Shown here: positions 7,091 through 26,126 of the stretch, piece by piece | How positions within the stretch are numbered: position 1 is the first letter of the stretch | Layout of the letters: every line of letters starts with the position of its first letter | Assembly: GCA_021789735.1 (NCBI GenBank) | Contig: JAJYJB010000010.1 | Span: forward strand, 1-44,381 | Length of the DNA: 44,381 bases | Origin: Nitrospirota bacterium | Lineage (GTDB): Bacteria; Nitrospirota; Thermodesulfovibrionia; Thermodesulfovibrionales; JdFR-88 | Direction: 5' to 3' | The notes under the pieces: model-generated | Seen by the model: the letters and a program-made list of their open reading frames with translations, nothing else | Told to the model about the DNA's origin: nothing | The model's database searches: none | Translations under genes and position numbers: made by a program

Positions 7091-7140
7091 AGGCCGCCAA
7101 AAAATAAAAATTTCCGTTCAGAGGAGGTGGAAAAACCAAA

Positions 7141-7749
7141 ATGCCAAAAAAGGAAAAAGAGAAAGAGCGCCCATTGCCAAGGCCGCCCAGAAAAAAAGCG
7201 GAACGTGGATTTTCCGGACGGGAGGAGGCAGGCGGCCTCATGTTCGACAAGCTGCAGGAGGCCGTTGCCCAGGGCAGGGTTGAGGAGTTCATGGAGGAGA
7301 ACATGCCTGAAGGCCAGTATTCCAAGAAACTGGCCGAGATGATGATGGGCATGTCAGGGGCGCCCCTTGCCTTAAGGCCGGAGAGGCCGGAGGAGGGAAA
7401 CGGGCCTGGCATGAAAGAAGCAGAAAGGCCCACGCTTAAAGTGCCAAAGGACGTGCTTCAGGCCGCCATGGAAGGCAACGTGAACACGCTTTCGGACCTG
7501 CTTAAAAGGGAACAGGGCCATCCGGCGGCGCCCACCCGCAGGAAAAAAAGCGCACCCCCGTCCGGGGAGGGCAAAGCGCTGCCAGGGGAAAAAGAAGGAC
7601 GGGAGGAAAAAAACGGGTCCCTGCTTGAAAAAGAGGTCATAGACAGTCTTCTTGAGATATCGGTTGACAACAACCTGCCCATGGACTGGCTCATCTACAG
7701 GGCGCTTAAACTCTACATCAAAAAATACCGGGAGACGGGGCAATTGTGA
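7141..7749 (+). CDS. Hypothetical charged protein with possible C-terminal ribbon-helix-helix
   Basis: I do not recognise this 202-residue protein. It begins 50 bases after the solute-binding-like gene, with AGGAGGT about 14 bases before the ATG, so the two are probably cotranscribed. The first 30 residues and residues 120-155 are rich in Lys, Arg, Glu and Pro and probably disordered. Residues about 25-60 are helical, with a Met-rich stretch (KLAEMMMGMSG). The last 40 residues (VIDSLLEISVDNNLPMDWLIYRALKLYIKKY, given here as two helices around the turn NNLPMDW) have the spacing of a ribbon-helix-helix or CopG-like domain. That suggests DNA binding or dimerisation. There is no signal peptide or membrane helix. 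Confidence 0.6.
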   Translation: MPKKEKEKERPLPRPPRKKAERGFSGREEAGGLMFDKLQEAVAQGRVEEFMEENMPEGQYSKKLAEMMMGMSGAPLALRPERPEEGNGPGMKEAERPTLKVPKDVLQAAMEGNVNTLSDLLKREQGHPAAPTRRKKSAPPSGEGKALPGEKEGREEKNGSLLEKEVIDSLLEISVDNNLPMDWLIYRALKLYIKKYRETGQL

Positions 7750-7782
7750 CGGGGCTAGGCGCCTAAAAAAAGCCGCAATGAA

Positions 7783-7799
7783 CGCCGGGCCGCCCGGCG
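7783..7799. terminator. Possible bidirectional terminator hairpin between convergent genes
   Basis: CGCCGGGCCGCCCGGCG folds into a perfect 7-base-pair stem with a 3-base loop, in the 88-base gap between two convergent genes. A-rich and T-rich tracts flank it on both strands but no uninterrupted U-tract follows directly, so efficiency is doubtful. A nearby TAGGCGCCTA palindrome (7755-7764) precedes an A-run. Confidence 0.4.
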
Positions 7800-7837
7800 A
7801 AAAAAGAAAAAAGTGAAAAAAACGAAAAATAAAAAAA

Positions 7838-9007
7838 CTAAGAAGAAAGACCGCGCAAAAAATCCATGAACTGGCGTTTTATCTCCAGGGGCCCAAGCGG
7901 AATTACCGGCACGTCCCGGTTGCCTGGCCGGGCGAGCGCGTGAATGAACCTTGGGCCTTTCACTTTTTCCTTCAGCGCACTGACGATATCTTTTTTCCCT
8001 GCCGCCATTGTCACATCGAGGCCGAACCCCTTTGCCATCATGCCAAGGTCGATGCACCCGGCGGCAAACGTGGGCTGGTTGCCGGTGGACCCGTATGCCC
8101 CGTTGTCGACGGCAAAGACCGTCAGGTTCCTGCCCGACAGGCAGGAGGCGGTGGCCAGGGTGCCGGGGTTCATCAGAAGGCTGCCGTCGCCGTCTATCAC
8201 GACCACGTCCTTTTCCTTTTTTGAAAGCGCGATCCCAAGCCCAATCGGCGTTGCCATTCCCATGCTGCCAAGCATGTAAAAATGCGAAGGCCTGTGCCCT
8301 ATGTCGTACAGCTCTCTCGAAGGGAACCCGAGATTGCAGATGACCGCCGCGCCTTCGAGCGCGGGCCAGATGGCGGAGAGCATCTCGTAACGGTCAAGCC
8401 TCCTTGCCTGCCGCACCGTTACCTTTTGGCTCCCAAGCTTTTTCCCAAAAGAAATCGCATTTTTATTTTTTGATTTTTTCCCTGGTTCTGGCCCGCTCTC
8501 AATCTTCAGGTTTGAGCCTTCCCATATGGCGGGCGACAGGAGGAAGAAGTGAATCCTGTTTTCCGAATAGACCTTCTCAAGCATTTTCGGAACAAGTTTT
8601 TTCAGGCCGGAGGCCGAATCTATGGAGGTAAAACCTATCCCTGCCCCCTCAAGGATGCCCGGCAGCTTAAGGCCCATAGGGGCCTGTGCGGCTATCTTCT
8701 CCTTGTAGATCCCCCTGTGGCTGGCAAATATGGCCACCGGCAGCCCGTAAAAGCCTGTGAGCGACAGGAGGGCGTTAATCATGTTGCCTGCTCCCGAGTT
8801 CTGGATGAACATGGCAGGCCTTTTGCCGGCCAGCGCCGCTCCGGCGCATATGCCCACGCCCTCTTCCTCCCTGGTAAGCGGGACATGAAAAAAACCCCGG
8901 GAAAGCAGGCACAAAAATCCCTTTATCCTGTCGCAGGGCAGGCTTGCCGTAAAATCCACCCCGCACTCCTGTAAAATCCCGGTCAGTTCTTCTTCAGCGG
9001 ACCGCAT
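7838..9007 (-). CDS. comDE: Sulfopyruvate decarboxylase, fused alpha and beta subunits (ComDE)
   Basis: This 389-residue protein joins the two halves of a thiamine-diphosphate decarboxylase. Residues 1-170 match ComD: CGVDFTASLPCD at 15-26 and LTREEEG at 44-50, whose glutamate activates the cofactor. A Lys/Ser-rich linker (about 172-200) leads to the ComE half, with the TPP signature GDG at 273-275 and DN at 301-302. The reaction converts sulfopyruvate to sulfoacetaldehyde, the penultimate stage of coenzyme M synthesis. ComD and ComE are separate in Methanocaldococcus but fused in Methanosarcina, as here. The gene overlaps cysteate synthase by 14 bases, matching the Methanosarcina pairing. 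A phosphonopyruvate decarboxylase is the main alternative, but no phosphonate gene is nearby. Confidence 0.88.
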   Translation of the reverse strand: MRSAEEELTGILQECGVDFTASLPCDRIKGFLCLLSRGFFHVPLTREEEGVGICAGAALAGKRPAMFIQNSGAGNMINALLSLTGFYGLPVAIFASHRGIYKEKIAAQAPMGLKLPGILEGAGIGFTSIDSASGLKKLVPKMLEKVYSENRIHFFLLSPAIWEGSNLKIESGPEPGKKSKNKNAISFGKKLGSQKVTVRQARRLDRYEMLSAIWPALEGAAVICNLGFPSRELYDIGHRPSHFYMLGSMGMATPIGLGIALSKKEKDVVVIDGDGSLLMNPGTLATASCLSGRNLTVFAVDNGAYGSTGNQPTFAAGCIDLGMMAKGFGLDVTMAAGKKDIVSALKEKVKGPRFIHALARPGNRDVPVIPLGPLEIKRQFMDFLRGLSS

Positions 9008-10256
9008 AGCGCAAAATTTTCTCGATCTCCTTCTCGGACGCGTTCTTAGATATCAGGACCGGGCTTATCCTGCCGACCGCCCTGTCCCTTTTGAGCCGCC
9101 TCTCGCCGCCCCCGGTTATGTTGAGCAGCACGGGCCCGTCGCTGCCCACCGTGCCTTTCTTTGCCGCCTTCAAAAGGGCGGCTGCGGCAACACCAGCCGC
9201 GGGCACCAGGTCTATCCCCTCGGTCTCCTCGAAAATGTCCATTGCGGAATAGACCTCGTCATTCGTTATACCATACATTGCGCCGCCTGTCGCTTCAAGG
9301 GCGTCAAACACGCCGCCAAGCACGCCATAGGCCGGGTACCGGTTCGAAAGGACCCTGGTGGTAGTCTCGCTGATGAAAGCGAAATCCAGGTCAGCCGGGT
9401 CGATCTCCCGGCTTTTTCTCATGTAGGCCTTCGTCATGGGGGCGAACGGGAGGTTCTGGGCCAGATGCAAGGCAGGCAGGGCGCTGCCGAACCGGCCGTC
9501 CCTTAAAAACCTTTCGCTCATCTCCCAGGCGGCTATCGCCCCCGCCCCGCTGCCCACGGCCTGGAAATAATGGCGGGGTAGCGTTCCGATGGTGTTTACC
9601 GACTCAAGCATGGCGATGCCCAGTCCGTCCCTCTTGGCGATGTTCTTTACGCCGCCTTCAAAGGGCATTCCCGCCACAAGGGCTATGCGCTTGGCCACGT
9701 TTATCGAATCGGAGTAATCTCCGTCCGAGACGGCTATGGTCGGGGCGCTGCCGGCGGCGTTTTTCTCCTCGAGGTACCACATCTCCGGGAGGCACATCGA
9801 GGGCACTACGATGATGGCCGGAAATCCGGAGGTGGAAGACAGATGGGCAAACGCCCTGGCCGTGTTGCCGGCGGAGGCGGCCACAAGCCCCAGCATCCCG
9901 TTTTCCATCGCGTTTTGAATGACCACCGCCGCCTCGAACTCCTTGAACGTGCAAGTCTGAAGGTGGGCGCCCTTTTCCGGCCAGTAACCGCAAAAACAGA
10001 TGTACAGCTCGGCAATGCCTGCATGGCGCGCGAACCCTTCGGACCGGTAGACGGCAGGACCGGGCTGTTTGAAACCGGGAGAATGGACAGGGAGCCAGTT
10101 GAACTTCCAGGCGCCCTCTCCAGCCCCGGAAGAAGAAAACTTCTTTTCCCTGTATTCGGTCACGAGGAGCGCGTTCACGCAGTGCTCGCAAAAGGCGCAA
10201 TAGGCGTTCTCAAGCACCTTCCCGCATTTCCTGCACACAATGTTGAAGTGGCTCAT
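8994..10256 (-). CDS. Cysteate synthase (PLP enzyme of coenzyme M biosynthesis)
   Basis: This 420-residue fold-type II PLP enzyme belongs to the threonine synthase superfamily and looks specifically like Methanosarcina cysteate synthase, which makes L-cysteate from O-phosphoserine and sulfite. From memory of that enzyme, matching blocks include GYWPEKGA, the cofactor-lysine segment TCTFKEFEA (K105), ASAGNTARAFAH, HYFQAVGSG and LAQNLPF. The N-terminus has Cys pairs at 8/11 and 20/23, suggesting a zinc ribbon. Cysteate would be transaminated to sulfopyruvate, the substrate of the next gene; no aminotransferase is present in the window. Generic annotation would say threonine synthase; the partner gene and motif pattern argue for cysteate synthase. 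It follows the hdrD-like gene by 8 bases. Confidence 0.88.
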   Translation of the reverse strand: MSHFNIVCRKCGKVLENAYCAFCEHCVNALLVTEYREKKFSSSGAGEGAWKFNWLPVHSPGFKQPGPAVYRSEGFARHAGIAELYICFCGYWPEKGAHLQTCTFKEFEAAVVIQNAMENGMLGLVAASAGNTARAFAHLSSTSGFPAIIVVPSMCLPEMWYLEEKNAAGSAPTIAVSDGDYSDSINVAKRIALVAGMPFEGGVKNIAKRDGLGIAMLESVNTIGTLPRHYFQAVGSGAGAIAAWEMSERFLRDGRFGSALPALHLAQNLPFAPMTKAYMRKSREIDPADLDFAFISETTTRVLSNRYPAYGVLGGVFDALEATGGAMYGITNDEVYSAMDIFEETEGIDLVPAAGVAAAALLKAAKKGTVGSDGPVLLNITGGGERRLKRDRAVGRISPVLISKNASEKEIEKILRYAVR

Positions 10257-10264
10257 ATGATTTT

Positions 10265-11491
10265 TTAAAAAACCTCCGTTAAAAGCTCCATCGCGTCAAC
10301 AATGCCGATCCGTCTGCCGCCGGCCCCCATATGACTTTCAAGCGCCGCCCCCGCAATGGAATAGCAGGCCGGGCAGCCAAGGACAAGCCTGTCCGCCTCT
10401 TTCCGGCAGGCCTCGTCTATGGCAAGCCTGAATATGGCAAGCGCGTTTTCCCTGAACACCTTCCTCGCGGCCCCTCCGGCCCCGCAGCAGCGCGAGTTCT
10501 GCCTGTTCCTGTCAAACTCAAGCAGTCGCGTCCCCGGTATCCGGGAAAGGATCTTCCGCGGCTCCTCCGTTATGCCGACCCCCCTGCTCAGGTAACAGGG
10601 GTCGTGGTATATAAGACGTTCATCCAGCGGCCCGGACACCGACAGCCTGCCTTCCGCGAAGGCCCGCTCGATGTGCTGGGAGATATGCCTTGTCCCGAAG
10701 GGCAGCTTCCGCCCGTAGAACGAGGGCCAGTCTTTGGATATCATGTTCACGCAGCAGGGGCATGAGCACAGAAGCGTCTCCACCCCTTTTGCCACATATG
10801 CGTCCACGAGCCTTTTCACAAGCCCTTCGAGCAGCTCGAACTGCCCGGTTACGAAAAGCGGGAAACCGCAGCAGACCTCTTCCTCAGCGGAAAGCATCGT
10901 AAAGGACTCTCCTGCGCGGGAAAGCGCAAGCACATCGCCGCGGACCATGGGCTTTGCCTCATAGGCCCCCGTGCACCCGGCATAATAGCCAAGTTTTGCG
11001 CTTGCCGCCACTTTTACCTCCGGGGGAAGCCACGTGGAAAACCTCTCGCCGGCCGGCCTGCCGTATGGGTTTCCGGACTTGCTTACCGCCTCCGGGGCGT
11101 CCCTCTGCGAGCCTATCGGCCCAAGCCCCCGCTTGACCATCTCCCTGCGCAGCATGGGCCACAGCCTCTGTGTATGGATGCCCACCGTGCAGGACTGGCC
11201 GCAGGCCCCGCACGTGGTGCATTCAAAAACGGCCTTCGTGAAATCCTGAAGCAGGCCTTCGTCTATCCTGCCGCCGCCCAGGAGCCACCGCCTGAGAACG
11301 CCCGTTCTCTTTATGAACTCCCTGAAGTTCCGTATCTTCTCAGGCGGGGAAACGGAGCGGTCTCCGGTCACCTCCTGCACCGGGCAGCACTTCAGGCATT
11401 CCCCGCACCGGGTGCAGGCATCCAGCTCAAGAAGCTGCCCGCCGGAGAGGCACCTTGAAAAAGAGCAGGTTTTTTTCTCTTGTCTGCTCAT
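10265..11491 (-). CDS. HdrD-like heterodisulfide reductase subunit (CCG-domain Fe-S protein)
   Basis: The product has 408 residues, close to the length of Methanosarcina HdrD. The N-terminus carries two [4Fe-4S] motifs: CTRCGECLKCCP at about residues 27-38 and CTTCGACGQSC near 92-102. Two CCG domains follow, the C-terminal one being C-x35-CC-x36-CxxC (YHDPCY, CCGAGG, GCPAC). The first is slightly irregular, ending in CSCPCC. In HdrD these bind the non-cubane cluster that reduces the CoM-S-S-CoB heterodisulfide at the cytoplasmic membrane face. Related CCG proteins (GlpC, LutA, DsrK, HmcF) act on other substrates. The HdrE-like partner overlaps by 4 bases and CoM synthesis genes follow directly, favouring a CoM-containing disulfide or thiol. 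CoB synthesis genes are not in the window, so the true substrate is unknown. Confidence 0.85.
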   Translation of the reverse strand: MSRQEKKTCSFSRCLSGGQLLELDACTRCGECLKCCPVQEVTGDRSVSPPEKIRNFREFIKRTGVLRRWLLGGGRIDEGLLQDFTKAVFECTTCGACGQSCTVGIHTQRLWPMLRREMVKRGLGPIGSQRDAPEAVSKSGNPYGRPAGERFSTWLPPEVKVAASAKLGYYAGCTGAYEAKPMVRGDVLALSRAGESFTMLSAEEEVCCGFPLFVTGQFELLEGLVKRLVDAYVAKGVETLLCSCPCCVNMISKDWPSFYGRKLPFGTRHISQHIERAFAEGRLSVSGPLDERLIYHDPCYLSRGVGITEEPRKILSRIPGTRLLEFDRNRQNSRCCGAGGAARKVFRENALAIFRLAIDEACRKEADRLVLGCPACYSIAGAALESHMGAGGRRIGIVDAMELLTEVF

Positions 11492-12222
11492 GGCGCGGGA
11501 GAGAAAAAACCCCCTTTCACGGACTCCTCACGCCTCCTTGCCTGGTAAATGGTAAAAGGCGCGGCGAATATATGGGAAGGCAGATAAAGCAGAAGGCACA
11601 GGGCCAGAATGAAATGGGCCAGAAACGGCGCCTCTCCATGGAAGCCCGCCAGCACGCCCCCCGGCACCGCCCCCGAAAGGAGCGCCTTTGGGTCCAGGGC
11701 GAACATCATGAACTCCTTCACCGCGACCACGTTCGGATAGAAATAAAGGCTGAGAAGAGCGCCCAGGGAGCTTATGATGAAAAACCCCGAAAGAAGAACA
11801 TAGTTATAGGCGAACATCTGCCTGCCGCGGTTTGCCGCCGCCTTGACGGCAAAGATATAAAGGAGCGAAAAGGGAAGGACGTATCCCGCGGCCCTGCCCG
11901 CGGCCTGCATCTGCCAGACAAACTGCGGCACCGGGGTCAGGAAATACCTCAGGTGCCTTATAAGCACCAGGACGAGGCTTGCGTGGAAAACCCATTCGCC
12001 AAGCCACAGGACCTTGTTCACCCTGAAGAGCCTCCTTAAAAATATCACATCCAGGGCAGCCGCCCCCGCGCCGCCGCCCCCAAGCGGCTGGCCGCGTCCG
12101 GGCTTTTCCGCCGAAGGCCCTTTCAGCCATCCCGCCAGGTGCGCCGCCGTCCTTATCACGAACGCGGCATAGACCAGAAGGGCCGCCACCGCCAGGAAAT
12201 AAAAAAAAACCTTCACCATCAT
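11488..12222 (-). CDS. HdrE/NarI-type membrane cytochrome b
   Basis: This 244-residue membrane protein has about five hydrophobic helices. Histidines suited to bind b-type haem lie in WVFHASLVLVLIRHLRYF (around 80-97) and LAHFILALC and LPSHIF (around 205-225), as in the NarI/HdrE/DsrM family. The family passes electrons between the quinone or methanophenazine pool and a cytoplasmic Fe-S partner. Length and the overlapping HdrD-like gene (ATGA) match the HdrDE pair of Methanosarcina. In a bacterium the membrane carrier would be menaquinone, which is inference. Residues 35-55 form a Gly/Ala/Pro-rich loop between helices 1 and 2. The gene is preceded by the largest gap inside the run (148 bases), with GGAGG too far away to serve as its ribosome site. 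Confidence 0.83.
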   Translation of the reverse strand: MMVKVFFYFLAVAALLVYAAFVIRTAAHLAGWLKGPSAEKPGRGQPLGGGGAGAAALDVIFLRRLFRVNKVLWLGEWVFHASLVLVLIRHLRYFLTPVPQFVWQMQAAGRAAGYVLPFSLLYIFAVKAAANRGRQMFAYNYVLLSGFFIISSLGALLSLYFYPNVVAVKEFMMFALDPKALLSGAVPGGVLAGFHGEAPFLAHFILALCLLLYLPSHIFAAPFTIYQARRREESVKGGFFSPAP

Positions 12223-12370
12223 AAATATCTATTAAATTTCAAAAAACCTCCGCAGCTTGACGATCCCCGCTGGGCCCTGGCCGTTGCGCACCTTTCGCTC
12301 CCCACTGAAGAACGAGCGGGCCATGTTGTCCCCAGCACTTCTCTCATATCCTTATGAAAATTGACCCGCT

Positions 12371-12685
12371 TCACTTCTCGAATGAGATACTCACGTCCCT
12401 GGGCAGGCAGAAACCGGCCTCTACCTCTACAGCCTTTATTATCCCACACGGCACGGGACAGCCGGGGTGCTTCAGATGTCTGGCGGCCGCCCTGTACACC
12501 GGATTGTTCAGAAAATCGGTAAAGGCGGCCGCCATCTTGTCCACCGTCGCTATCTCCCCTGCCAGCTTCTGGACCATCGTGCACTGGCTTTCCAGCCGGA
12601 TGGATATCTTTCTTTCAGGGCCTTTCTCCGCCGTCACTACACAGAGAAAACCGCAGGCGCCTGAGTTTATGGTGACTCTTGTCAT
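12371..12685 (-). CDS. Small Cys-rich protein of corrinoid methyltransferase loci (DUF6951-like)
   Basis: This 104-residue protein has no signal peptide or membrane helix. Conserved-looking cysteines fall in SGACGFLC (about residues 8-15), SQC (near 34), HPGCPVPC (near 73-80) and AGFC near 93. From memory it resembles a family called DUF6951, found beside corrinoid activases and methyltransferases in methanogens and acetogens. The function is unknown; metal or cluster binding, or a chaperone role for the corrinoid protein or activase, are possibilities. It begins 6 bases after the activase gene stops, so it is surely cotranscribed and perhaps translationally coupled. Confidence 0.7.
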   Translation of the reverse strand: MTRVTINSGACGFLCVVTAEKGPERKISIRLESQCTMVQKLAGEIATVDKMAAAFTDFLNNPVYRAAARHLKHPGCPVPCGIIKAVEVEAGFCLPRDVSISFEK

Positions 12686-12691
12686 ACGGGA

Positions 12692-14692
12692 TCACCCCTT
12701 TATCGCCACATGCGGAGACTCCTTCTCGATGAGTTTTTTAAGGTTCGGGAAGCTGTCTTTCATGTGCGGCAGGTGCATGGCCTGCATGAACTCCTTCTCA
12801 AAGGCGGGCTCGATGGCGATCTCCACGAACTCCACCCACCTGGCCCGCTCCTCGGCCTCCTGCCTCTTGGTGTTGCTCACGAGGGCCATCCTGGCCCCGT
12901 CGCCGGCCGCGTTGCCCACCGCGTAGACGTTCTCTATCTCGCAGTCCGGGAACATGCCAAGCGTCATGGCGGACTCCTTGTCTATATAGCTTCCGAATGC
13001 CCCGGCAAGAAGCACCTTGTCCAGTTTCTCGATCCCCATTTTGCGCATCATGAGCTTCGCCCCCGCGTAGAGCGCCCCCTTGGCAAGCTGGAGCGCCCGC
13101 ACGTCCGCCTGGGTTATGGTTATGTCGGCCCCGATGGACGTCTCCCGCGCCCATGCCAGGACGTACTCGGGCTTCCCCTCGTGGTCCTTTCTTGTCCTTG
13201 GGGTCTCTGCGGTCATGTCGAACCTGCCGGACTTGTCTATGATGCCGGCCTTGTACATCCAGGCGATGGCGTCTATGATGCCGGACCCGCAGATCCCCTT
13301 TGCGTCCACCTTCTCAAGATCGGTGTGCCACTGCTCCTTGCCTATCACCTTGTACAGGGGCTCTTTTGTGGCAGGGTCTATCTTCACCTTTTCTATCGCC
13401 CCGGGAGCGGCGCGCATGCCCATTTTTATCTGCGCCCCCTCAAAGGCGGGCCCGGTGGCGCAGGACGTGGAGCAAACGCGTTCCCGGTTGCCAAGCAGGA
13501 GCTCTCCGTTGGTGCCTATGTCTATTATCAGGACCTTCTCATCCATGTTGTAAGGCTCCATGGCTATGAGGACGCCAACGTTGTCCGCACCCACAAAACC
13601 CGCCTCTATGGGAAGGACGTAGATATAGGAGCCGGGGTTGATCTTTATCCCCAGGTCCCTGGCCTTGATGTCCAGGCCGTGCTGTATGGCCGGGATGAAA
13701 GGCGAGCGCCCTATGTGCTCCGGGTTGAAACCCAGGAATATGTGGTGCATGGCGGTGTTGAAGACTATGGTCATGTCCACAATGGCGTCTCCGCCCGTGT
13801 CCGCGTCCCCGCCCGGAAGCAGACCCGAATTCCTTGCGTTCGATACTATGTTTGATATGATTTCGTTCAGCCCCTCTACTATCGCCCCCTGCATCCTGCG
13901 CACCCCGTCCGGGTTGGTCATGGCGTAGGTAATGCGGGACATCACGTCCTCGCCGTAGGGGACCTGCGGGTTCATCATAGACTCCGTGGCCAATACCTTG
14001 CCCGTCGCCAAGTCGGTAAGATAGCCCACGACGGTGGTGGTTCCCACGTCCACGGCAAGCCCGTATGAGGCCTCCACGAAACCGGGCGCGATCTTTATTA
14101 TCTCCCGCCCCTTCCATATGGAGACGGTAACGCCCCAGTTGCCTTTTCTTACGGTGTCCTGGAGGTCCTTGAGGACAAGAAAATCCATGGACAGGTTTTT
14201 CCCGTCCAGCCCGTAATTTTCAGACAGGGCGCGCCTGAGCTTTTCCAGGTCCCCGGTGATGGGCTCATGCAGGGAGGGCTTTGGCAGCTCGACAAAATAG
14301 GTCTTCACGGCGGGGTCTATCGCAATATTGAGCTCTCTTGCCGCTTTTCTGACCACCTGCTTGCCAGCCCTCGATTTTTCAGGGACGAATATCTTCACGT
14401 CCCCGTGGGCGTGCGCCGCGCAGGCCAGCCTCATGCCGGGCCCGTCAGAGGGTTTCAGAAATTTCCTCTCCACGTCCGTAAGAGGGGAAAGGTGCTCCAT
14501 CCTGGAGTCCATCGAGTCCTTTTCGAAAAAACCCTCCTCCACCCTCACCTTGCATTTGCCGCATGTGCCCTTGCCCCCGCAGATAGACTCTATGTCCACT
14601 CCCAGGTTCCTGGCGACATCAAGGAGGTCAGTGCCGTCCGGCACCTCGCCCCTCCTGCCGGAGGGCTGAAAGATAACCCTGTGCTTCTTCAT
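12692..14692 (-). CDS. Reductive activator of corrinoid proteins (RACo-type, [2Fe-2S] plus ASKHA ATPase)
   Basis: This 666-residue cytoplasmic protein has an N-terminal plant-type [2Fe-2S] domain: C38, C44 and C47 in CGGKGTCGKC, with C91 as fourth ligand. A middle linker domain follows, then an actin-like ATPase domain that begins with DVGTTTVVGYL and contains DIGTNGELLLG, CGSGIIDAIAW and LAGAFGSYI. Corrinoid methyltransferases are inactivated when Co(I) oxidises to Co(II); RACo proteins restore Co(I) using ATP. The [2Fe-2S] type is the acetogen/bacterial form, in contrast to archaeal RamA, which carries C-terminal [4Fe-4S] clusters. It lies downstream of its likely target, the corrinoid protein, and is flanked by a QueG-like Fe-S protein and a small Cys-rich protein. 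Confidence 0.93.
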   Translation of the reverse strand: MKKHRVIFQPSGRRGEVPDGTDLLDVARNLGVDIESICGGKGTCGKCKVRVEEGFFEKDSMDSRMEHLSPLTDVERKFLKPSDGPGMRLACAAHAHGDVKIFVPEKSRAGKQVVRKAARELNIAIDPAVKTYFVELPKPSLHEPITGDLEKLRRALSENYGLDGKNLSMDFLVLKDLQDTVRKGNWGVTVSIWKGREIIKIAPGFVEASYGLAVDVGTTTVVGYLTDLATGKVLATESMMNPQVPYGEDVMSRITYAMTNPDGVRRMQGAIVEGLNEIISNIVSNARNSGLLPGGDADTGGDAIVDMTIVFNTAMHHIFLGFNPEHIGRSPFIPAIQHGLDIKARDLGIKINPGSYIYVLPIEAGFVGADNVGVLIAMEPYNMDEKVLIIDIGTNGELLLGNRERVCSTSCATGPAFEGAQIKMGMRAAPGAIEKVKIDPATKEPLYKVIGKEQWHTDLEKVDAKGICGSGIIDAIAWMYKAGIIDKSGRFDMTAETPRTRKDHEGKPEYVLAWARETSIGADITITQADVRALQLAKGALYAGAKLMMRKMGIEKLDKVLLAGAFGSYIDKESAMTLGMFPDCEIENVYAVGNAAGDGARMALVSNTKRQEAEERARWVEFVEIAIEPAFEKEFMQAMHLPHMKDSFPNLKKLIEKESPHVAIKG

Positions 14693-14742
14693 CCTCTACC
14701 TCCATATAAAGAACTTTTAAAAAAGGAAAAGTGCGATCTTTC

Positions 14743-15462
14743 CTATTTTTTTCTTCCCGTTGCCGTCTTTCTGCCGTAAGGGCAGATGCTTATGCAAAGG
14801 CCGCAGTTCGGCTTCCCTTTTGTTGCCCTTGCGCGCCCCTTGTGGGCCGCGCATTTGTTCGTCTTGACCAGTTCTATGTACGGCTCCCTCCAGGACCAGT
14901 CCAGGCCCGCGATGGCGTGCGAGGGGCAAAAGTCCGAGCAAAGGGTGCACGGCCCGCACTTGCTGCGGGCCACAGGGGAGCCTGGTTCCAGCGGGGCGTC
15001 AGTGAGGACCGTCGCAAGAGAGAGGCGCGGGCCGTACTCGGGGTTTATGAGAAGCCCGTTTCTGCCTATCCAGCCAAGTCCGGCCAGCGTGGCCGCCATC
15101 TTGTGCGTAAGGAGCGGATAGAGCCTGGAGGCAAAGGTGTTCCTTACCCGGTCAGAATCCGGAGGGATGCAGAAATACCTGTATCCCCTTGCCCTCAGGA
15201 AGGCCTGGGCCCTTTTTTGAAGGGCCAGAAGCAGTTTTACCGTCTCCTCGTTCAGGTTCTTTACCACCCCTATCGATACCGCGATCTGCAGGTGCGCCAG
15301 CTCATCGCCTGCAGCGCCCCGCACAAACGCGAACCCCACCACGGCAGCCCCCGCGGAAACCAGCTCCGCCTTCAATGCGGCCCCAAGGGTCTTTTCCTCC
15401 TTTTGGGGAGCAAAATCAGCGGTCCTGATTTTTTTATTTTTACTCATCGTATCCGCCAGCAT
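14743..15462 (-). CDS. QueG-like double [4Fe-4S] cluster protein
   Basis: This 239-residue protein carries the C-terminal architecture of epoxyqueuosine reductase and related proteins. A region with LGWIGRNGLLINPEYGPRLSL (shown here as key residues GWIGRN and GPR) is followed by two ferredoxin-like sites: CGPCTLCSDFCP at about residues 169-180, then a lone Cys near 203 with CGLCISICP near 219-227. QueG itself is larger and uses cobalamin to reduce epoxyqueuosine. The location, 9 bases after the corrinoid protein and 50 before the corrinoid activase, suggests it delivers electrons to the corrinoid or the activase. That role is inference. An internal ATG at 15447 is an alternative start. Confidence 0.75.
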   Translation of the reverse strand: MLADTMSKNKKIRTADFAPQKEEKTLGAALKAELVSAGAAVVGFAFVRGAAGDELAHLQIAVSIGVVKNLNEETVKLLLALQKRAQAFLRARGYRYFCIPPDSDRVRNTFASRLYPLLTHKMAATLAGLGWIGRNGLLINPEYGPRLSLATVLTDAPLEPGSPVARSKCGPCTLCSDFCPSHAIAGLDWSWREPYIELVKTNKCAAHKGRARATKGKPNCGLCISICPYGRKTATGRKK

Positions 15463-15471
15463 TCTAAAAAC

Positions 15472-16164
15472 TCATCCCCGCTTTCTTGCTTCCGCCTCTT
15501 CCTTCATCTTCTTGAGAGAGCTCACCATGTTGATGGCGTCCTTCAGGGCGTTGTTGGCGTCCTTGGCGTAGCCGTCCGCGCCCCACTTGCCCGCGATGTC
15601 GGATGAGACCGGGGCGCCGCCGATCATGATCTTCACATTGGGATTTTTCGCCCGCAGGTCGTCTATGACCTTTTTCATGCCCACCATCGTGGTGGTCATC
15701 ATGGCGGAGAGGCAGACCAGGTCCGAATCGGTCTTAAGCTGCTCCTCCACGAACTTGTCCAGGGGCACGTCCCTGCCCAGGTCGTAGACGGTAAAGCCCG
15801 CCACGTCGAACATCATCTTCACGATGTTCTTCCCGATGTCGTGCACGTCCCCCTCGACCGTGCCTATGACGACCGAGCCCTTCACCCCGAGGTCCAGCTG
15901 TTTCACGTGGGGCTTCAGGATGTCGAGGCCGGCGTAGAGGGCGTCGGCGGACATGAGGAGCTCGGGCACGAAATACTCCTGGGCCTCGAAAAGCCTTCCG
16001 ACCTCCTCCATCCCGCTGACCAGCCCGTTGAAGATGGCGTCATTTGCGTCCATGCCAAGCTCTATGACCTCGTTTGAGGCCTCCTTGGCGCCATCCTCGT
16101 CATACTGAATGACGGAATTTCTGAGCCTCTCCAAAAGCTCCTGCCTTTTTTCTTCCGTTATCAT
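15472..16164 (-). CDS. Corrinoid (cobalamin-binding) methyl-carrier protein, MtaC/MtbC/MttC family
   Basis: This 230-residue protein has the two domains of methyltransferase corrinoid proteins: a four-helix B12-binding cap (about 1-90) and a Rossmann B12 domain. The base-off, His-on signature is at D106-V-H108-D-I-G111 within GTVEGDVHDIGKN, with H108 the lower cobalt ligand. GGAPVSSD near 180 contacts the nucleotide tail. It carries the methyl group on cobalt between two methyltransferases. Its ATG overlaps the stop of the MtaA-type gene by 4 bases, implying stoichiometric synthesis. The MtrH-family gene lies just upstream. Confidence 0.95.
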   Translation of the reverse strand: MITEEKRQELLERLRNSVIQYDEDGAKEASNEVIELGMDANDAIFNGLVSGMEEVGRLFEAQEYFVPELLMSADALYAGLDILKPHVKQLDLGVKGSVVIGTVEGDVHDIGKNIVKMMFDVAGFTVYDLGRDVPLDKFVEEQLKTDSDLVCLSAMMTTTMVGMKKVIDDLRAKNPNVKIMIGGAPVSSDIAGKWGADGYAKDANNALKDAINMVSSLKKMKEEAEARKRG

Positions 16165-17201
16165 GCTTGCCTCCTGTAATTGAAAACTTCATCCATCATG
16201 GCTTTTATGTTCTGTATGGGAACGGTGGGCCAGATGTCGCAGCCCGGCCAGACCGCGTCCACCCCGTCATCCATGCACTTCCTTATGGCCTGGCGGACAT
16301 TGGCCTCGGAGCCGGCCACCAGGATGTTATAAGGGTCGTAATTGCCGAAAAGAAGCGCGCTTCCTATCTTCTTCCTGGTCTCCGCCACGTCGTTTTTCTG
16401 GTCCACGCTGATGGCGGAGGCCCCCGACTCCACCATGAAGGGCGCTATGTCATTGGTCTTCCCGCATATATGGAGGACCGTATTTGTCCTTAGCTGCCCG
16501 AATATCTTTTTCAGGTACGGGAGGATCAGGTTTTTGAACACCCTGGGGGAAAGGACGTCGGAGGTGGCGCCCATCTCCCTTACCGTGATGTAATCGGCCC
16601 CGGCCTCCTCGAACTCCCTTGCGCAAAGCACGATGGCATCGGCCAGTATGTCCATAAGGCCCCCCACCTTGTCGGGCTTCTTGAAGGAGAGTTTCAGAAG
16701 GTCGTTCAGCTCCATTATCTGGCCTGCCAGCGTGAAGGGCCCAAGCACATAGGTGCCCACGGCAACTTCTCCTCCGATGCCGGCCTTCACCAGGCTTATG
16801 GCCTCCTTCACAAGCGGGATCCTCCCCCTGCGGGTGAAGTCCGGGGGAATGCTTATGCCCATCTCCTCTTCGTTATGGATTATCTTCTTTCTGATCGTCG
16901 GATAAAGGATGTCGTCCAAGTGGGAGTAGACGTTTATCTCGCAGCCGAGCGCCTCCGCCTCCACGCAGAGGTCAAACGGCACGACGCCGCACTCAAACCC
17001 AGTCAGCTTGTAAGTGGAGGCGGCCACATCCGCCATCATTTTAGCGTTTGAGTGCAGGGCGGCAAACTTGTATCCGAGCCTGCCAAGCCCCTCCGTCGTG
17101 GCGTTTCCCATCCCACTGAAACATGGCGGCCTGTCCACCTTTTCACCCGCGAAAAGTTTCAGGACCCGCTCTTTTGGCGTCATCGTACTCGTCTCTGCCA
17201 T
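16161..17201 (-). CDS. Methylcobamide:coenzyme M methyltransferase-like protein (MtaA/MtbA, second copy)
   Basis: This 346-residue protein belongs to the uroporphyrinogen-decarboxylase superfamily. It carries the zinc site of the MtaA/MtbA branch: H244-I-C246 in VLHICGKT and C321 in WPGCDIWPTVP. These three ligands bind Zn, which activates the thiol of coenzyme M for methylation from methyl-Co(III). The heme-pathway decarboxylase HemE lacks this triad. The N-terminus MTPKERVLKLFAGEKVDRPP is typical. Related enzymes (CmuA, vanillate O-demethylase MT-I) use the same fold to take methyl groups from other substrates, so the substrate is open. Translational coupling to the corrinoid protein and CoM synthesis in the same run favour CoM. 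Confidence 0.88.
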   Translation of the reverse strand: MAETSTMTPKERVLKLFAGEKVDRPPCFSGMGNATTEGLGRLGYKFAALHSNAKMMADVAASTYKLTGFECGVVPFDLCVEAEALGCEINVYSHLDDILYPTIRKKIIHNEEEMGISIPPDFTRRGRIPLVKEAISLVKAGIGGEVAVGTYVLGPFTLAGQIMELNDLLKLSFKKPDKVGGLMDILADAIVLCAREFEEAGADYITVREMGATSDVLSPRVFKNLILPYLKKIFGQLRTNTVLHICGKTNDIAPFMVESGASAISVDQKNDVAETRKKIGSALLFGNYDPYNILVAGSEANVRQAIRKCMDDGVDAVWPGCDIWPTVPIQNIKAMMDEVFNYRRQA

Positions 17202-17270
17202 CGGCTTTTTTCCCTTTCTGATCTAAAAAATTTATTGATGGATTTTTCCTTTTTTCTTTCCCTTTTCCTT

Positions 17271-18224
17271 CTATTTCCTGGCCCCCCCGGCAACGAGCTT
17301 CTCTATGAAATCCGGGAAGAATTTCCTTATCGGCAGTTCACCTCCGGGGGCGATGGTGCCTGTCTCCGTGTACAAAAGAGTGGAAAGCAGAATGTGCGCG
17401 GTGGCCACCGCCGGAAATATCCTTGGCGCCGTGACGATAGGCCCGTAAAAATTAAAATCGCTCCAGAGGACCGAGGACATGCCCTGCGCCACGGCATCCA
17501 TCGCCTTGAACCCTTCAAGCCCCCAGGCCTCCCTGGACTGCTTCCACATATGGGTGCCGTTTGAGTAGGCCCCGCCGCAGGGCAGCCCCAGCTTCTCCTT
17601 GATAAGCCTGTTTGCCACAAGCGACAGCGAGGTGGCGGGCAGGTTCATGACGGAGGTGTCCACTATCACCGTATCGAAATCCGCCGCCCCCTGTGAAAGT
17701 ATGCCCTCAAGCGACCTGAGCCTTCCCGCGGGGCTCTGGTCCTTGTCATCGAATGCCTGGACAACGACGTGTTTGATGCCCAGGTCCTTGAGTCTTGCCA
17801 CCTGTCCGCTTATGTCCTTGTCCCACGGGGTGATGCTGTTGTACAGGAATCTATCCTGAACGCCAAGCCTGGCGATGTATTCGGTTGCCTTTGCCCGCTG
17901 CTCGGCCACCCACATGTCGATGCCGAAGGGCATGCTGCCTGAGGCCGTCTCCAGAAAAAAATCTATGTATATCTTCGCCTCCTCAGGGGTGTTGGCCACC
18001 ATTGCCACCATCCCCGGTATGCCCGTTGAGCGGGTGAGCTCCTCCTGGTTTTTTATGAGCTCCTTTGCCTTCTGCCTGTCAAAATTGCCCTTCCTGTCCG
18101 CCAGGATACGGTCCTTGTTGTGGAACATCGAGGCTATGAGGACCGGAGGGTTGCTGCCCGCCGGACCCCCTATCCGGACGTCCCCTATGTTAAAAACCTT
18201 CTGCGCCGCGTCAAACCCGAACAT
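17271..18224 (-). CDS. MtrH-family tetrahydropterin:corrinoid methyltransferase
   Basis: This 317-residue TIM-barrel protein resembles MtrH, the subunit of methyl-tetrahydromethanopterin:CoM methyltransferase that moves the methyl group between pterin and corrinoid. It also resembles bacterial relatives (MtgA, CmuB, O-demethylase MT-II) that use tetrahydrofolate. Recognisable segments are NIGDVRIGG near the start, LIASMFHNKDRI, DMWVAEQRAKATEYI and LPCGGAYSNG. No other Mtr subunit is present; the neighbouring soluble corrinoid protein would replace MtrA. It sits between the CMD-family gene (59-base gap) and the second MtaA-type gene (69-base gap). The pterin (H4F or H4MPT) cannot be told from sequence. 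Confidence 0.9.
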   Translation of the reverse strand: MFGFDAAQKVFNIGDVRIGGPAGSNPPVLIASMFHNKDRILADRKGNFDRQKAKELIKNQEELTRSTGIPGMVAMVANTPEEAKIYIDFFLETASGSMPFGIDMWVAEQRAKATEYIARLGVQDRFLYNSITPWDKDISGQVARLKDLGIKHVVVQAFDDKDQSPAGRLRSLEGILSQGAADFDTVIVDTSVMNLPATSLSLVANRLIKEKLGLPCGGAYSNGTHMWKQSREAWGLEGFKAMDAVAQGMSSVLWSDFNFYGPIVTAPRIFPAVATAHILLSTLLYTETGTIAPGGELPIRKFFPDFIEKLVAGGARK

Positions 18225-18283
18225 GCCTTCTCCTTAGGACGGGGCGGGCACGCCCGGAAGGCGCGCCCCCCGCATTTTTTTTA

Positions 18284-18730
18284 TTAGAATACGCCGTGGT
18301 CGAACCTCGGCTGGGGCAGGTACTCCCATTTTTCGCCCTTCCTGTACTTGGCCTCGATGTCAAGGCACTTCAAGGCGTACTCGAACGCGTACGGTATGCC
18401 CGGCCCTCCGGGGACAAAGCCCGCGAGTATCATGCCCACGGCGGCCGCCTCGAATATCTCTCCGGTCGTTGCCCCGGCGTTTATCGCGGGCACAACGTGG
18501 ATGATGCACCTGGGCGAGCAGTACGCCACGCCGCCCGACATGAACATAAGCTCCTTATGCTTCCTCGAGAGTGCGCCATCCCCGAATATGCTCTCGTAGA
18601 AATCCGCGAACGTCCTGCCGGGCTCCGGGGTGACGGTGTTTATTATCTGGAACATCCTGGGGACAAACCCGCATTTCTCCTTCATGTACGCGTTCACTTC
18701 TTCGACTGTCATCTTTTTCTGTTCGGCCAT
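18284..18730 (-). CDS. Carboxymuconolactone decarboxylase/AhpD-family protein
   Basis: The product has 148 residues from the ATG with AAGGAG six bases upstream. A longer in-frame start at 18790 has GGGAGG four bases before it, so both are possible, but the added residues look non-conserved. The CMD fold is shown by the helical core around LMFMSGGVAYCSPRCIIHVVPAINAGAT. Its cysteine site is C-SPR-C-II-H (CxxxCxxH) rather than the CxxC of AhpD. Such proteins act as thiol-dependent reductases or decarboxylases. CMD-family genes often accompany corrinoid methyltransferases, but the role is unknown. Here it might handle a thiol such as CoM; that is speculation. Confidence 0.8.
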   Translation of the reverse strand: MAEQKKMTVEEVNAYMKEKCGFVPRMFQIINTVTPEPGRTFADFYESIFGDGALSRKHKELMFMSGGVAYCSPRCIIHVVPAINAGATTGEIFEAAAVGMILAGFVPGGPGIPYAFEYALKCLDIEAKYRKGEKWEYLPQPRFDHGVF

Positions 18731-18839
18731 TTTCTTCTCCTTCTTCCGGCCCCACTTGAAGCCGGATGCTTTTGCTAAAAAGTCTCTCATAGAACCTCCC
18801 AAAAACGGACCTTCCCCGCCCCCCTTCACCTCCTTCCGG

Positions 18840-19868
18840 TCAGTATTTCCATTCCCTGGCGACCTGTATCAGTTTCTGAATATTCTCGTAAGGCACGGTC
18901 GGAGGGATGTCGCAGCCCGGCATAAGGACAAAGCCGCCGTCTGTGCCGACCGTGCTTATCAGCCGTCTGCACTCCGCCTCCACTTCCTGCGCGCTTCCGT
19001 TCAGCATTATCTTCACGGGGTCCACGTTGCCGCCGAAGCACATCTTGCCGTGGAGCACTTCCCTGGCCTTGACGATGTCCGTCTTGTGGTCCAGGCTTAT
19101 GCAGCTTGCTCCTGTTGCCGGGAAGAGGTCCAGACGGTCGGTGGTGTTCCCGCATATATGCAGGAGGGTGTGGGCCCCTTTTGACCTGGCCCAGTCGGTA
19201 AACTTCTTGAGGTAGGGGAGCGCGAACTTCTCGAACTGCTTCTTCGAGATCAGGTCCCCGGAGGCCGTCGGGTCGGCCAGGCTTATGACCTCAAGGGTCC
19301 CGTCCTCGACCAGAGGCTCGTACAGGCGGATGAGCAGATGGGTGGCGAAGTCCACCACCTTCTCCACAAAGGCGGGCCTCTTGAAAGTGGCCTTCATCAT
19401 CGCCTCCTCGCCCACAAAACGCGCCGCAAGGGTGAACGGCCCCCAGGCGGTCAGGGTAACGGCGTAGTTGTTGCCTATCTTTGCGTTGGCAAGCTTTGTC
19501 GCCTTCCTGGTGGTCTCGACTACCTTGTCGCTGTTTATCCGGTCCATGTCCAGTTTCTGAAGGTCTTCCTCGGAGGCCACAAGCGGGGCCTCAAGGTCCG
19601 GAGCCCCGATCTCCCTGAACTTTATGGAGCCGCCCAGCGCCGAGGCATGAAAGTTGTTGTACCCGGAGCCCGCATAGACTATATCGCACAGGAGCTTCTC
19701 AGACATCGTCACAAGCATATCGGACATCCGGACGGCGTCCTCTGAGAGTTCCTGGAAAGAAGACCCGTAATGTCTGATGCTCCACATGCCCGCCCCGAAA
19801 AGTGTGGCGGGCACCCTGTCCGCCTTGCCGCCTTCAAACGCCCTTAAAATCGTCTCCCTTGGTGTCAT
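18840..19868 (-). CDS. Methylcobamide:coenzyme M methyltransferase-like protein (MtaA/MtbA, first copy)
   Basis: This 342-residue protein is a paralogue of the gene at 16161-17201. The Zn-ligand triad is H237-I-C239 in LLHICGNT and C319 in MPGCDIPPTVP, at nearly the residue numbers of archaeal MtaA/MtbA. MTPRETILRAFEGGKADRVP is the usual N-terminus. The two copies diverge clearly (for example in the substrate-side region 50-150). One may act on CoM and the other on a different methyl donor, as MtaA/MtbA differ in corrinoid partner. The ATG overlaps the stop of the upstream receiver-like gene by 4 bases, placing it at the head of the structural genes. Confidence 0.88.
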   Translation of the reverse strand: MTPRETILRAFEGGKADRVPATLFGAGMWSIRHYGSSFQELSEDAVRMSDMLVTMSEKLLCDIVYAGSGYNNFHASALGGSIKFREIGAPDLEAPLVASEEDLQKLDMDRINSDKVVETTRKATKLANAKIGNNYAVTLTAWGPFTLAARFVGEEAMMKATFKRPAFVEKVVDFATHLLIRLYEPLVEDGTLEVISLADPTASGDLISKKQFEKFALPYLKKFTDWARSKGAHTLLHICGNTTDRLDLFPATGASCISLDHKTDIVKAREVLHGKMCFGGNVDPVKIMLNGSAQEVEAECRRLISTVGTDGGFVLMPGCDIPPTVPYENIQKLIQVAREWKY

Positions 19869-20266
19869 GGTGCCCCCTGTATTTTTTTTAAAGAAGAAAA
19901 TTCGCTTTCCGCACCTCCGCCCCCGATCGCGAGGACGGCACGGACCGCCTCCTTGAACTCCTCCAGGTCGACCGGGGCCTCGATGTTCACCGCCCCCGGA
20001 GAAGCCTGGCCGACAACTATAACGGGCAGGCCCGGCGAAACGGACTTGATCACCTGTACGGCGTCACCTGTGGAAAGGCCGAAAGGCCCGGGATCGATGG
20101 TCACGAAACTGTAGTCCCCGCCGCTGATCATCTGCATGGCCAGGATCAGGCGGTCCGCCATGTCCACCTCGTATCCCTCCTGCCGCAGCAGCCCGTATAG
20201 ACTTTTGGCCAGCACAGGGTCATGCGTGCAGAAAAGAACTTTTTTGTTTTTACCCTTCACGACCAT
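19865..20266 (-). CDS. Degenerate receiver-domain protein
   Basis: A stand-alone CheY-like domain of about 130 residues. The core reads KKVLFCTHDP, then FVTIDPGPFG with the Asp at the phosphorylation position, then LPVIVVGQAS. The conserved lysine before the last helix is missing (EAPVDLEEF instead of the usual K-P), and only one acidic residue remains at the N-terminus. Classical phosphorylation is therefore doubtful. Start choice is difficult: a GTG at 20290 would lie inside the sigma-54 promoter and the ATG at 20266 just upstream of the predicted transcript start (about 20263). A GTG at 20260 would make the mRNA nearly leaderless. It ends in a 4-base overlap with the first MtaA-type gene. 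Confidence 0.7.
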   Translation of the reverse strand: MVVKGKNKKVLFCTHDPVLAKSLYGLLRQEGYEVDMADRLILAMQMISGGDYSFVTIDPGPFGLSTGDAVQVIKSVSPGLPVIVVGQASPGAVNIEAPVDLEEFKEAVRAVLAIGGGGAESEFSSLKKIQGAP

Positions 20267-20273
20267 AGAAACA

Positions 20274-20289
20274 AGCAACAGGCGTGCCA
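20274..20289 (-). promoter_or_regulatory. Consensus sigma-54 promoter of the CoM/methyltransferase operon
   Basis: On the minus strand TGGCACG (20289-20283), four bases, then TTGCT (20278-20274) match the sigma-54 consensus exactly, with GG and GC elements 10 bases apart as required. Transcription would start near 20263 and run into 13 minus-strand genes. The adjacent upstream gene encodes an NtrC-type sigma-54 activator, which strongly supports function. Confidence 0.85.
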
Positions 20290-20375
20290 CCCTTGGTGGG
20301 TTGGCCGGAAGCCCGCTTTCTCAAAGGGTTTTTGGCATGGGAGAAAAGACGAGGCGCAAAAAAGCGGGATAGTTG

Positions 20376-20426: not shown

Positions 20427-21785
20427 TCAGGAGGGGTCCGTTTTCGCCGGGTCCATACCGTCCATACCGTACTTCCTGAGCTTAAGGTACAGGGTTTTTC
20501 TGTCTATGCCCAGCATCTGGCTTGCCCTGGACTGGTTCCTTCCGGCGGCCTTGAACACCCGTAGTATATAATCCCTCTCCATCTCTTCCAGGGAAAGCCG
20601 TTCGCCCCCGTCCGCGGCTGGCGCCTCGGGAATGAGGACCGCATCCCGCCCTATCGTGCCGGACTCGGACAGTATGACCGCCCTTTCCATTATGTTCTCA
20701 AGCTCCCTTACATTGCCCGGCCAGCGGTAGCCCTTAAGGGCCTCCATCGCCTGCCTTTCGATGCTCTCCATGTTCTTTGAGAACTTGCGGCCGTACTTGA
20801 GGAGGAAGTATCCGGCCAGCTCCTCTATGTCTTCGGGGCGCTCCCTGAGCGGCGGGATGTTGACCGAAAAGACATTGAGCCTGTAATAGAGGTCCTCCCT
20901 GAAGAGGCCCTCCTTGATGAGGCCCCTTATGTCCCTGTTCGTGGCCGCTATCACCCTTACATCCACGGTCAGGTTCTTGTTGCCGCCCACCCGCCTGAAC
21001 TCCCCCGAATCCAGGAACCTGAGGAGCTTGGCCTGGAGCTTCATGGGCATCTCGCCTATCTCGTCCAGAAAGAGCGTGCCCGTGTCCGCCACCTCCACTA
21101 TGCCGTGCTTGGTCTGGTAGGCGTTAGTGAAGGCCCCCTTCTCGTGCCCGAATATCTCCGACTCCATCAGGCTTTCAGAAAGGGTGGCGCAATTGAGCGC
21201 GATGAAGGGCAGATCCCGCCTCTTGCTGCTTCGCCACAGGATGTTGGCGGCCAGTTCCTTGCCGGTGCCGGATTCCCCCTGGATGAGGACCGGAGAGTCC
21301 GTGGGAGCTATCTTTTTTATGAGTGAGATGACATCGCCAAGCTGCCTGCTTTTATAAACGAACTGGGCGGCGGACTCCTTCCTCACCAGCTCCTGTTCGA
21401 GAAGCTTGCTCTTGGTGGAAAGCCTTCCGTATTCATAGGCCCTGTTTATGATGATAACGAGCTCATCGAGCTTGTAAGGTTTCGTCAGGTAGTCGTAGGC
21501 CCCGTTTTTCATTGCAGCAACGGCGGTCTCCACGGTCGCCTTTCCTGTGAGGACTATTATCACGGGGCCGGCCGGGTCGTTTTTCAACTTCTCCATCATG
21601 GAAACCCCGTCCATGCCCGCCATCACGATGTCAAGGAGTATTATGTCAAAGGTCTTCTCCTTGAGGATCTGCAGGGCCTCCCCGCCATCGGCGGCAGCCT
21701 CGACGTAAAAACCTTTCCTGGCAAGCTCCCTTTTAAGGAGCCTCCTGAAGGGCTCCTCGTCGTCCACCGCAAGGACCCTTATCAC
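20427..21785 (-). CDS. NtrC-family sigma-54-dependent response regulator
   Basis: This 452-residue protein has three domains. The receiver (1-120) has the acidic pocket VDDEE at 7-11, phosphorylatable D52 and K102. The AAA+ sigma-54 interaction domain has Walker A GESGTGKE at 170-177, the sigma-54 contact loop as GAFTNA at 217-222 (consensus GAFTGA), and Walker B FLDEIGEMP. A C-terminal Fis-type helix-turn-helix has NQSRASQMLGIDRKTLYLKL. It would activate sigma-54 promoters by ATP-driven remodelling. A consensus sigma-54 site lies just downstream, ahead of the methyltransferase run, the obvious target. The gene overlaps its cognate kinase by 4 bases. Confidence 0.95.
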   Translation of the reverse strand: MIRVLAVDDEEPFRRLLKRELARKGFYVEAAADGGEALQILKEKTFDIILLDIVMAGMDGVSMMEKLKNDPAGPVIIVLTGKATVETAVAAMKNGAYDYLTKPYKLDELVIIINRAYEYGRLSTKSKLLEQELVRKESAAQFVYKSRQLGDVISLIKKIAPTDSPVLIQGESGTGKELAANILWRSSKRRDLPFIALNCATLSESLMESEIFGHEKGAFTNAYQTKHGIVEVADTGTLFLDEIGEMPMKLQAKLLRFLDSGEFRRVGGNKNLTVDVRVIAATNRDIRGLIKEGLFREDLYYRLNVFSVNIPPLRERPEDIEELAGYFLLKYGRKFSKNMESIERQAMEALKGYRWPGNVRELENIMERAVILSESGTIGRDAVLIPEAPAADGGERLSLEEMERDYILRVFKAAGRNQSRASQMLGIDRKTLYLKLRKYGMDGMDPAKTDPS

Positions 21786-26125: not shown

Positions 26126-26126
26126 T

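Follow-up and report, generated by a model that had tools for sequence, protein, structure and literature searches.

In the 44,381-nucleotide contig JAJYJB010000010.1 of a Nitrospirota bacterium (the whole of which we call the window), 13 minus-strand genes lie in one run from position 20290 down to position 7838 and bring together genes for coenzyme M (CoM) biosynthesis, corrinoid methyltransferases, and an HdrDE-like pair. CoM is the methyl carrier of methane-producing archaea. An earlier note on this DNA had proposed that the bacterium makes CoM and uses it as a methyl carrier, and this interpretation is the best on offer, although it is only partly supported: the biosynthesis genes and their co-inheritance with an MtrH-family methyltransferase speak for it, whereas no archaeal CoM synthase (MMP16) was found over cut-off in any of 37 related genomes. 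Judging from sequence comparisons, we put at roughly 60% the probability that this conserved Nitrospirota cluster would make CoM, which would likely carry methyl groups and be connected with tetrahydrofolate via a corrinoid protein. Genome-wide counts given below concern related genomes (37 carriers, and 200 genomes of one class) rather than the source genome itself.

The case for CoM biosynthesis is carried by the last two genes of the run. Cysteate synthase (8994–10256; all genes of the cluster are on the minus strand) scores 456.7 bits with TIGR03844 (cut-off, 324.9), and its best score with threonine synthase models is 63.9 bits (cut-off, 303). The fused ComDE (7838–9007), a predicted sulfopyruvate decarboxylase, is matched by TIGR03845 in its alpha part (179.9 bits; cut-off, 147.95) and, just under cut-off, by TIGR03846 in its beta part; the window protein scores 196.8 bits with the phosphonopyruvate decarboxylase model, under its cut-off of 312.5. 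Each of the 35 ComDE members is matched by the alpha and the beta model alike. The claim that a bacterium carries CoM-type biosynthesis genes is supported. The earlier note had considered that the two genes might belong with threonine synthase and phosphonopyruvate decarboxylase instead: neither cut-off is reached and the operon cysteate synthases join 12 archaeal sequences (support 100/99), apart from the enzymes of Bacteroidales, Spirochaetes, and WOR-3, albeit in a midpoint-rooted tree that contains sequences of neither family. ComDE lies beside cysteate synthase in nine of the 12 archaeal loci versus none of 31 Bacteroidales, Spirochaetes, and WOR-3 loci. A capnine-type cysteate synthase was considered and rejected, as the Bacteroidales enzymes, which presumably make capnine, are placed opposite it in the tree.

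A scan of named species with cysteate synthase yielded 80 loci that were kept, and the first 37, at 55 to 94% identity, form the related set. All but two of these carry the name Nitrospirota, or that of a group inside it, in their titles, the exceptions being L031 (Thermoleophilia) and L034 (“bacterium”). Gene order is kept in the 37 loci as far as the contigs reach, which indicates that the cluster is more than a chance arrangement. ComDE was found in 36 loci, HdrD in 32, the HdrE-like protein in 31, the DUF6951 protein in 30, RACo in 29, the corrinoid protein in 26, MtaA1 and the QueG-like protein in 25 each, MtrH in 24, the carboxymuconolactone-decarboxylase/AhpD-like protein in 20, and MtaA2 in 18. 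Contig ends account for most of the missing parts; beyond them, the QueG-like protein is missing in L011 and L031, and in L022 ComDE is not beside its displaced cysteate synthase. In L031 the operon is present and its cysteate synthase falls inside the Nitrospirota clade, which points to transfer or mis-binning.

Co-inheritance was then measured in a sample of 200 genomes from the class to which genome G024 belongs, where an MtrH ortholog was defined by 63% identity or more (G184, at 31%, was left out). Cysteate synthase was detected in 61 genomes (60 over cut-off), the MtrH ortholog in 66, and both in 60, so that operon carriers make up about three-tenths of the surveyed class. Put differently, cysteate synthase is present in 60/66 genomes with the MtrH ortholog versus 1/134 without it (Fisher P = 7.5e-43, not corrected for kinship), which bears out the co-occurrence in bacteria that had been suggested as a check. 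The single genome with cysteate synthase and no MtrH is G051. Six genomes have MtrH and no cysteate synthase: in G195 and G199 the module stops at a contig edge, in G047 part of an HdrD lies near a contig edge, and G174, G191, and G210 are taken up below.

Two of the methyltransferases belong to the URO-D/MtaA type. MtaA1 (16161–17201), a predicted methylcorrinoid:CoM methyltransferase, is 32% identical to MtaA of M. mazei (4ay7) and exceeds the cut-off of the NF004889 subfamily model (280 bits against 244), which all 25 aligned members match at E 1e-30 or better. MtaA2 (18840–19868), a predicted corrinoid S-methyltransferase, is 29% identical to the same protein and scores 172 bits, below that cut-off. 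The His-Cys-Cys zinc ligands (H244, C246, and C321 in MtaA1; H237, C239, and C319 in MtaA2) are invariant in 25/25 and 15/15 aligned members, respectively. According to PMC10418091, this triad marks enzymes with thiol or selenol substrates, and O-methyltransferases have one or both cysteines replaced; its retention in both proteins therefore fits thiol rather than O-methyl substrates. In the tree, MtaA1 clusters with 4ay7 and archaeal relatives, with less than firm support (87/91), and MtaA2 forms a separate clade. A further MtaA1-like protein (48 to 52% identity) is encoded outside the operon, with at least 13 matches in at least 12 class genomes (e.g., G199:C48, G096:C46, and G167:C42).

The MtrH-family methyltransferase (17271–18224), predicted to act on the methyl-tetrahydrofolate side, exceeds the cut-off of NF002142 (326 bits against 287), and its relatives of solved structure include Mtr subunit H (172 bits) as well as, at 128 bits, a methylcorrinoid:tetrahydrofolate methyltransferase. 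No other Mtr subunit (MtrA to MtrG) was detected among the 25 open reading frames (ORFs) of the window that were scanned, and no genome-wide search was made. In three of the 37 loci (L004, L008, and L037), FolD lies between the DUF6951 and HdrE-like genes, which favors folate as the pterin. The B12-binding methyltransferase corrinoid protein (15472–16164) and the RACo-type corrinoid reductive activator (12692–14692) were assigned with curated family models, and such models also back the names given before to cysteate synthase, ComDE, the MtrH-family protein, the two URO-D/MtaA-type enzymes, and the HdrD-like protein. Methyl entry from methylamines or betaine through MttB-type enzymes was rejected: they occur in 1/37 genomes, in a search that did not cover the MtaB type, which makes MtaA2 the candidate for methyl entry.

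The redox pair consists of an HdrD-family protein (10265–11491) and an HdrE-like membrane cytochrome b (11488–12222). HdrD shares 37% identity with a Methanoperedens homolog; it has two complete CCG and two 4Fe-4S motifs, and at least 95% of the 31 members aligned retain the cysteines of these motifs. For the HdrE-like protein, a NarI-type fold is predicted, with four invariant histidines (80, 90, 203, and 217), and in sequence it resembles DsrM more closely than the single archaeal HdrE candidate used for comparison. The description of this pair as HdrDE-like therefore stands for the HdrD-family partner, with its CCG and 4Fe-4S motifs, whereas the likeness of the other partner is to the NarI/DsrM type. 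In L020, a second, divergent HdrD-like protein (30%) is encoded at 6484–7890, just upstream of the operon HdrE.

In the carriers, mcrA was found in 0/37 related genomes and in both archaeal genomes of the same search, in agreement with the earlier claim that Mcr is lacking; no methane is therefore expected. A CdhC-type acetyl-CoA synthase is present in 34/37 genomes and DsrA in 35/37 (34 over cut-off), so that the carriers look like Wood-Ljungdahl, sulfite-reducing bacteria.

The following mechanism, each step of which is read from family membership, would join these parts. Cysteate synthase would make cysteate from phosphoserine and sulfite, a general aminotransferase would convert cysteate to sulfopyruvate, and ComDE would decarboxylate the latter to sulfoacetaldehyde, from which CoM would arise via a further enzyme or through a direct reaction with the sulfide that these cells presumably produce. 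One corrinoid protein would serve MtrH (methyl-tetrahydrofolate), MtaA1 (CoM), and MtaA2, the last acting on a second thiol, most likely a methylated sulfur compound; RACo would re-reduce the corrinoid, perhaps aided by the QueG-like and DUF6951 proteins. HdrD and the HdrE-like cytochrome b would pass electrons between a CoM-containing disulfide and menaquinone and so recycle the disulfide. Our guess is that the net methyl flow runs from a methyl-thiol/methyl-CoM pool to methyl-tetrahydrofolate and into the Wood-Ljungdahl pathway. The kinds of CoM metabolism described earlier serve methane and alkane chemistry in archaea and alkene and epoxide chemistry in bacteria. A bolder proposal, which we advance tentatively and at somewhat less than even odds, is that Wood-Ljungdahl, sulfite-reducing Nitrospirota have a third kind, with the archaeal cysteate route, a soluble version of the Mtr step (with methyl-folate, corrinoid, and methyl-CoM), an HdrDE-type closure on menaquinone, neither Mcr nor methane, and an undiscovered CoM synthase.

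Several observations weigh against the main CoM interpretation. The largest gap is the last biosynthetic step: when we looked for the enzyme that converts sulfoacetaldehyde to CoM, as the earlier note had advised, MMP16, the CoM synthase of M. acetivorans, was over cut-off in none of the 37 related genomes. Two of them (G033 and G034) match the MMP16 model over positions 1–281, below cut-off, and the other matches listed cover only the C-terminal ferredoxin-like part. A route through ComA was rejected, with ComA in 2/37 genomes. On the other hand, Methanoperedens nitroreducens (G038, locus L039) carries mcrA, cysteate synthase, and ComDE, and there, too, no match exceeds the MMP16 cut-off, which softens the lack in Nitrospirota and suggests that another CoM synthase may exist in Methanoperedens. 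PMC12068725 also cites a slow, uncatalyzed reaction of sulfoacetaldehyde with sulfide that yields CoM. Family assignments are less than complete as well. ComDE misses the TIGR03846 cut-off by 2.4 bits (219.1 against 221.5), and 35/35 ComDE members match the phosphonopyruvate decarboxylase model too, at E 1e-30. Cut-offs of the equivalog models for CoM methyltransferases are not reached (MtaA, 251.8 of 400 bits; MtbA, 190.1 of 600 bits), nor are those of the MtrH and MtgA equivalogs by the MtrH-family protein; folate and methanopterin are not told apart by sequence, and the use of folate by MtrH is presumed. Between the HdrE-like protein and the single archaeal HdrE candidate, the alignment is marginal (E = 0.003).

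Distribution adds to these counterpoints. HdrD is missing in five of the 37 loci, namely L010, where the contig ends, L027, and L032 to L034; in the last three, and probably in L027, HdrDE is absent beyond what contig ends explain. Acetyl-CoA synthase, tried as a correlate of the operon and rejected, is present in 176/200 class genomes and does not single out the carriers. In G174 (L164) and G191 (L163), the methyl module stands without HdrD/HdrDE, cysteate synthase, and ComDE alongside, and no cysteate synthase was found genome-wide in either at E 1e-60. G210 (L162) has a full-length ComDE and only remnants of cysteate synthase, a loss that reflects either a deletion or an assembly fault. Taken together with the overlaps of 60/61 and 60/66, G174 and G191 indicate that the CoM genes are almost always accompanied by the methyl module, and that the module can stand without them.

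Among other explanations, one is that the cluster is akin to the type 1 mlp gene clusters of Kountz and Balskus (PMC10418091), which also unite several MtaA-like proteins, a corrinoid protein, and an activator in bacteria; the two MtaA-like proteins (29 to 32% identical to M. mazei MtaA), corrinoid protein, and activator of the operon fit that description. However, in that paper a type 1 cluster must by definition lack a folate methylase within 20 kb, whereas this operon holds MtrH, with its presumed use of folate, as well as cysteate synthase, ComDE, and HdrDE; we consider such a kinship unlikely. It is improbable, too, that CoM, or another sulfonated thiol, is mainly a redox buffer, with HdrDE and the AhpD-like protein performing disulfide chemistry and the methyltransferases acting on a different thiol. 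The AhpD-like protein is highly conserved, HdrDE adjoins the CoM genes, and comDE overexpression with raised CoM protects M. acetivorans from oxidative stress (PMC12713407), yet a general redox thiol would not need the MtrH ortholog that accompanies cysteate synthase in 60 of 61 genomes, and MtaA1 matches the CoM methyltransferase subfamily. Low odds also attach to the view that the end product is another sulfoacetaldehyde derivative (isethionate, taurine, or sulfoacetate) and that the shared cluster reflects common sulfur regulation. The absence of MMP16 over cut-off would suit it, but the archaeon G038 and the uncatalyzed reaction described above offset this point, and the same cluster encodes MtaA-type thiol methyltransferases and an HdrD-family protein. 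Least of all do we expect an O-demethylase cluster for methoxylated aromatics with incidental CoM genes: acetogen O-demethylases have a similar parts list (URO-D methyltransferase, corrinoid protein, MtrH-type enzyme, and RACo), but MtaA2 scores 35.8 bits against CdmB of Acetobacterium, which we take to be an O-demethylase part, versus 94 bits against MtaA, and CdmB is not among the MtaA1 matches listed. Uncultured Thermodesulfovibrionia were among the dominant labeled taxa in a groundwater incubation with 13C-veratric acid (PMC10602745), yet this reading was rejected because every aligned MtaA1 and MtaA2 member keeps the His-Cys-Cys site that O-methyltransferases alter (PMC10418091).

The cluster begins with a response-regulator-receiver-like protein (19865–20290; 141 residues as listed), which has weak receiver matches and heads the operon in part of the loci. 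It is followed, in the 5′ to 3′ direction, by MtaA2, the AhpD-like protein (18284–18829; 64 to 94% identity in 13 relatives, hence very conserved), MtrH, MtaA1, the corrinoid protein, a QueG/reductive-dehalogenase-like Fe-S protein with eight conserved cysteines (14743–15462), RACo, the DUF6951 protein, the HdrE-like protein, HdrD, cysteate synthase, and ComDE. The run of 13 same-strand genes described before is real, with one gene re-assigned: the ORF at 12219–12584, taken for a Cys-rich protein, is in the wrong frame, and the conserved frame between RACo and HdrE is 12371–12685 (104 residues; conserved Cys11, Cys35, His73, and Cys76), whose L007 homolog belongs to DUF6951 (PF22263). With this frame included, eight of 12 junctions overlap or span at most 10 nucleotides, where six had been counted.

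A pattern scan found a sigma-54-type promoter-like site, TGGCACGCCTGTTGCT, with one mismatch at 20274–20289 on the minus strand. The listed start of the receiver-like ORF overlies this site (20289 down to 20274), and the true start of the gene thus probably lies downstream of it. Of the 16 loci with room for one, 12 have a similar site (up to two mismatches) close to where the first gene starts, compared with an expectation of 0.45 from random stretches of these loci, which supports a predicted transcription unit starting at the receiver-like gene; the cluster is predicted to be one co-transcribed, sigma-54-controlled operon. By family scan, an NtrC-type sigma-54 activator (20427–21785, minus strand) lies just upstream and adjoins a PAS/GAF sensor histidine kinase (21782–23893, minus strand). 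Among loci with more than 1 kb upstream, relatives of this pair precede the operon in L033 only (NtrC-type relative, 63%).

Convergent to the operon are genes for an NMT1-like solute-binding protein (6113–7090, plus strand) and a second protein (7141–7749, plus strand), with relatives near the operon in 9/37 and 14/37 loci; they are perhaps a sulfonate transport or sensing part. A distant binding protein (27 to 29%) is encoded inside the operon in L162, L163, and L165. Farther out, polysaccharide-type genes occupy 1281–5900 (minus strand; sugar transferase, Gfo/Idh/MocA-hexapeptide protein, and UDP-GlcNAc 2-epimerase), and 23985–28333 (minus strand), upstream of the regulators, encodes multiheme cytochromes with doubled CXXCH motifs, a thioredoxin-like TPR protein, and a TPR protein.

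The earlier note knew of no described system of this composition, and we found no account of this cluster or of such bacterial CoM use in the literature searched, where the work on type 1 mlp clusters (PMC10418091) comes nearest. If the CoM interpretation is true, CoM leaves its methane and epoxide niches and becomes a methyl and redox carrier in sulfur-cycling bacteria. The cluster would then test whether the methyl-transfer/disulfide half of methanogen-type energy metabolism runs without Mcr, bear on the origin of that half, and point to a new last step of CoM synthesis, maybe common to Methanoperedens.

Compared with known systems, the biosynthetic part resembles that of Methanosarcina, where cysteate synthase is likewise followed by fused ComDE (MA3297-MA3298; PMC12068725), an order also seen in loci L038, L039, and L052. 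The Methanosarcina pathway, however, has MMP16, and the genes described here sit within a bacterial methyl-transfer/redox cluster without Mcr. With the epoxide pathway of Xanthobacter it would share CoM in a bacterium, but that pathway starts from phosphoenolpyruvate via ComA (PMC12068725), an enzyme found in 2/37 of the related genomes. As in MtaA, MtbA, and MtsA of methylotrophic methanogens, there is a URO-D family enzyme with a His-Cys-Cys zinc site and a corrinoid partner; unlike in those systems, the operon enzyme stays below the equivalog cut-offs, at 32% identity to M. mazei MtaA, and MtrH is the partner on the other side. The overall reaction would resemble that of the methanogen Mtr complex, with an MtrH-family enzyme and a corrinoid-to-CoM step, except that the corrinoid protein is of the MtaC type and folate is presumed in place of methanopterin. 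Finally, the pairing of a NarI-type cytochrome b with a CCG/4Fe-4S protein is that of methanogen HdrDE, DsrMK, and EtfD, although here the HdrD half is nearest to archaeal homologs and the cytochrome half is nearest to DsrM.

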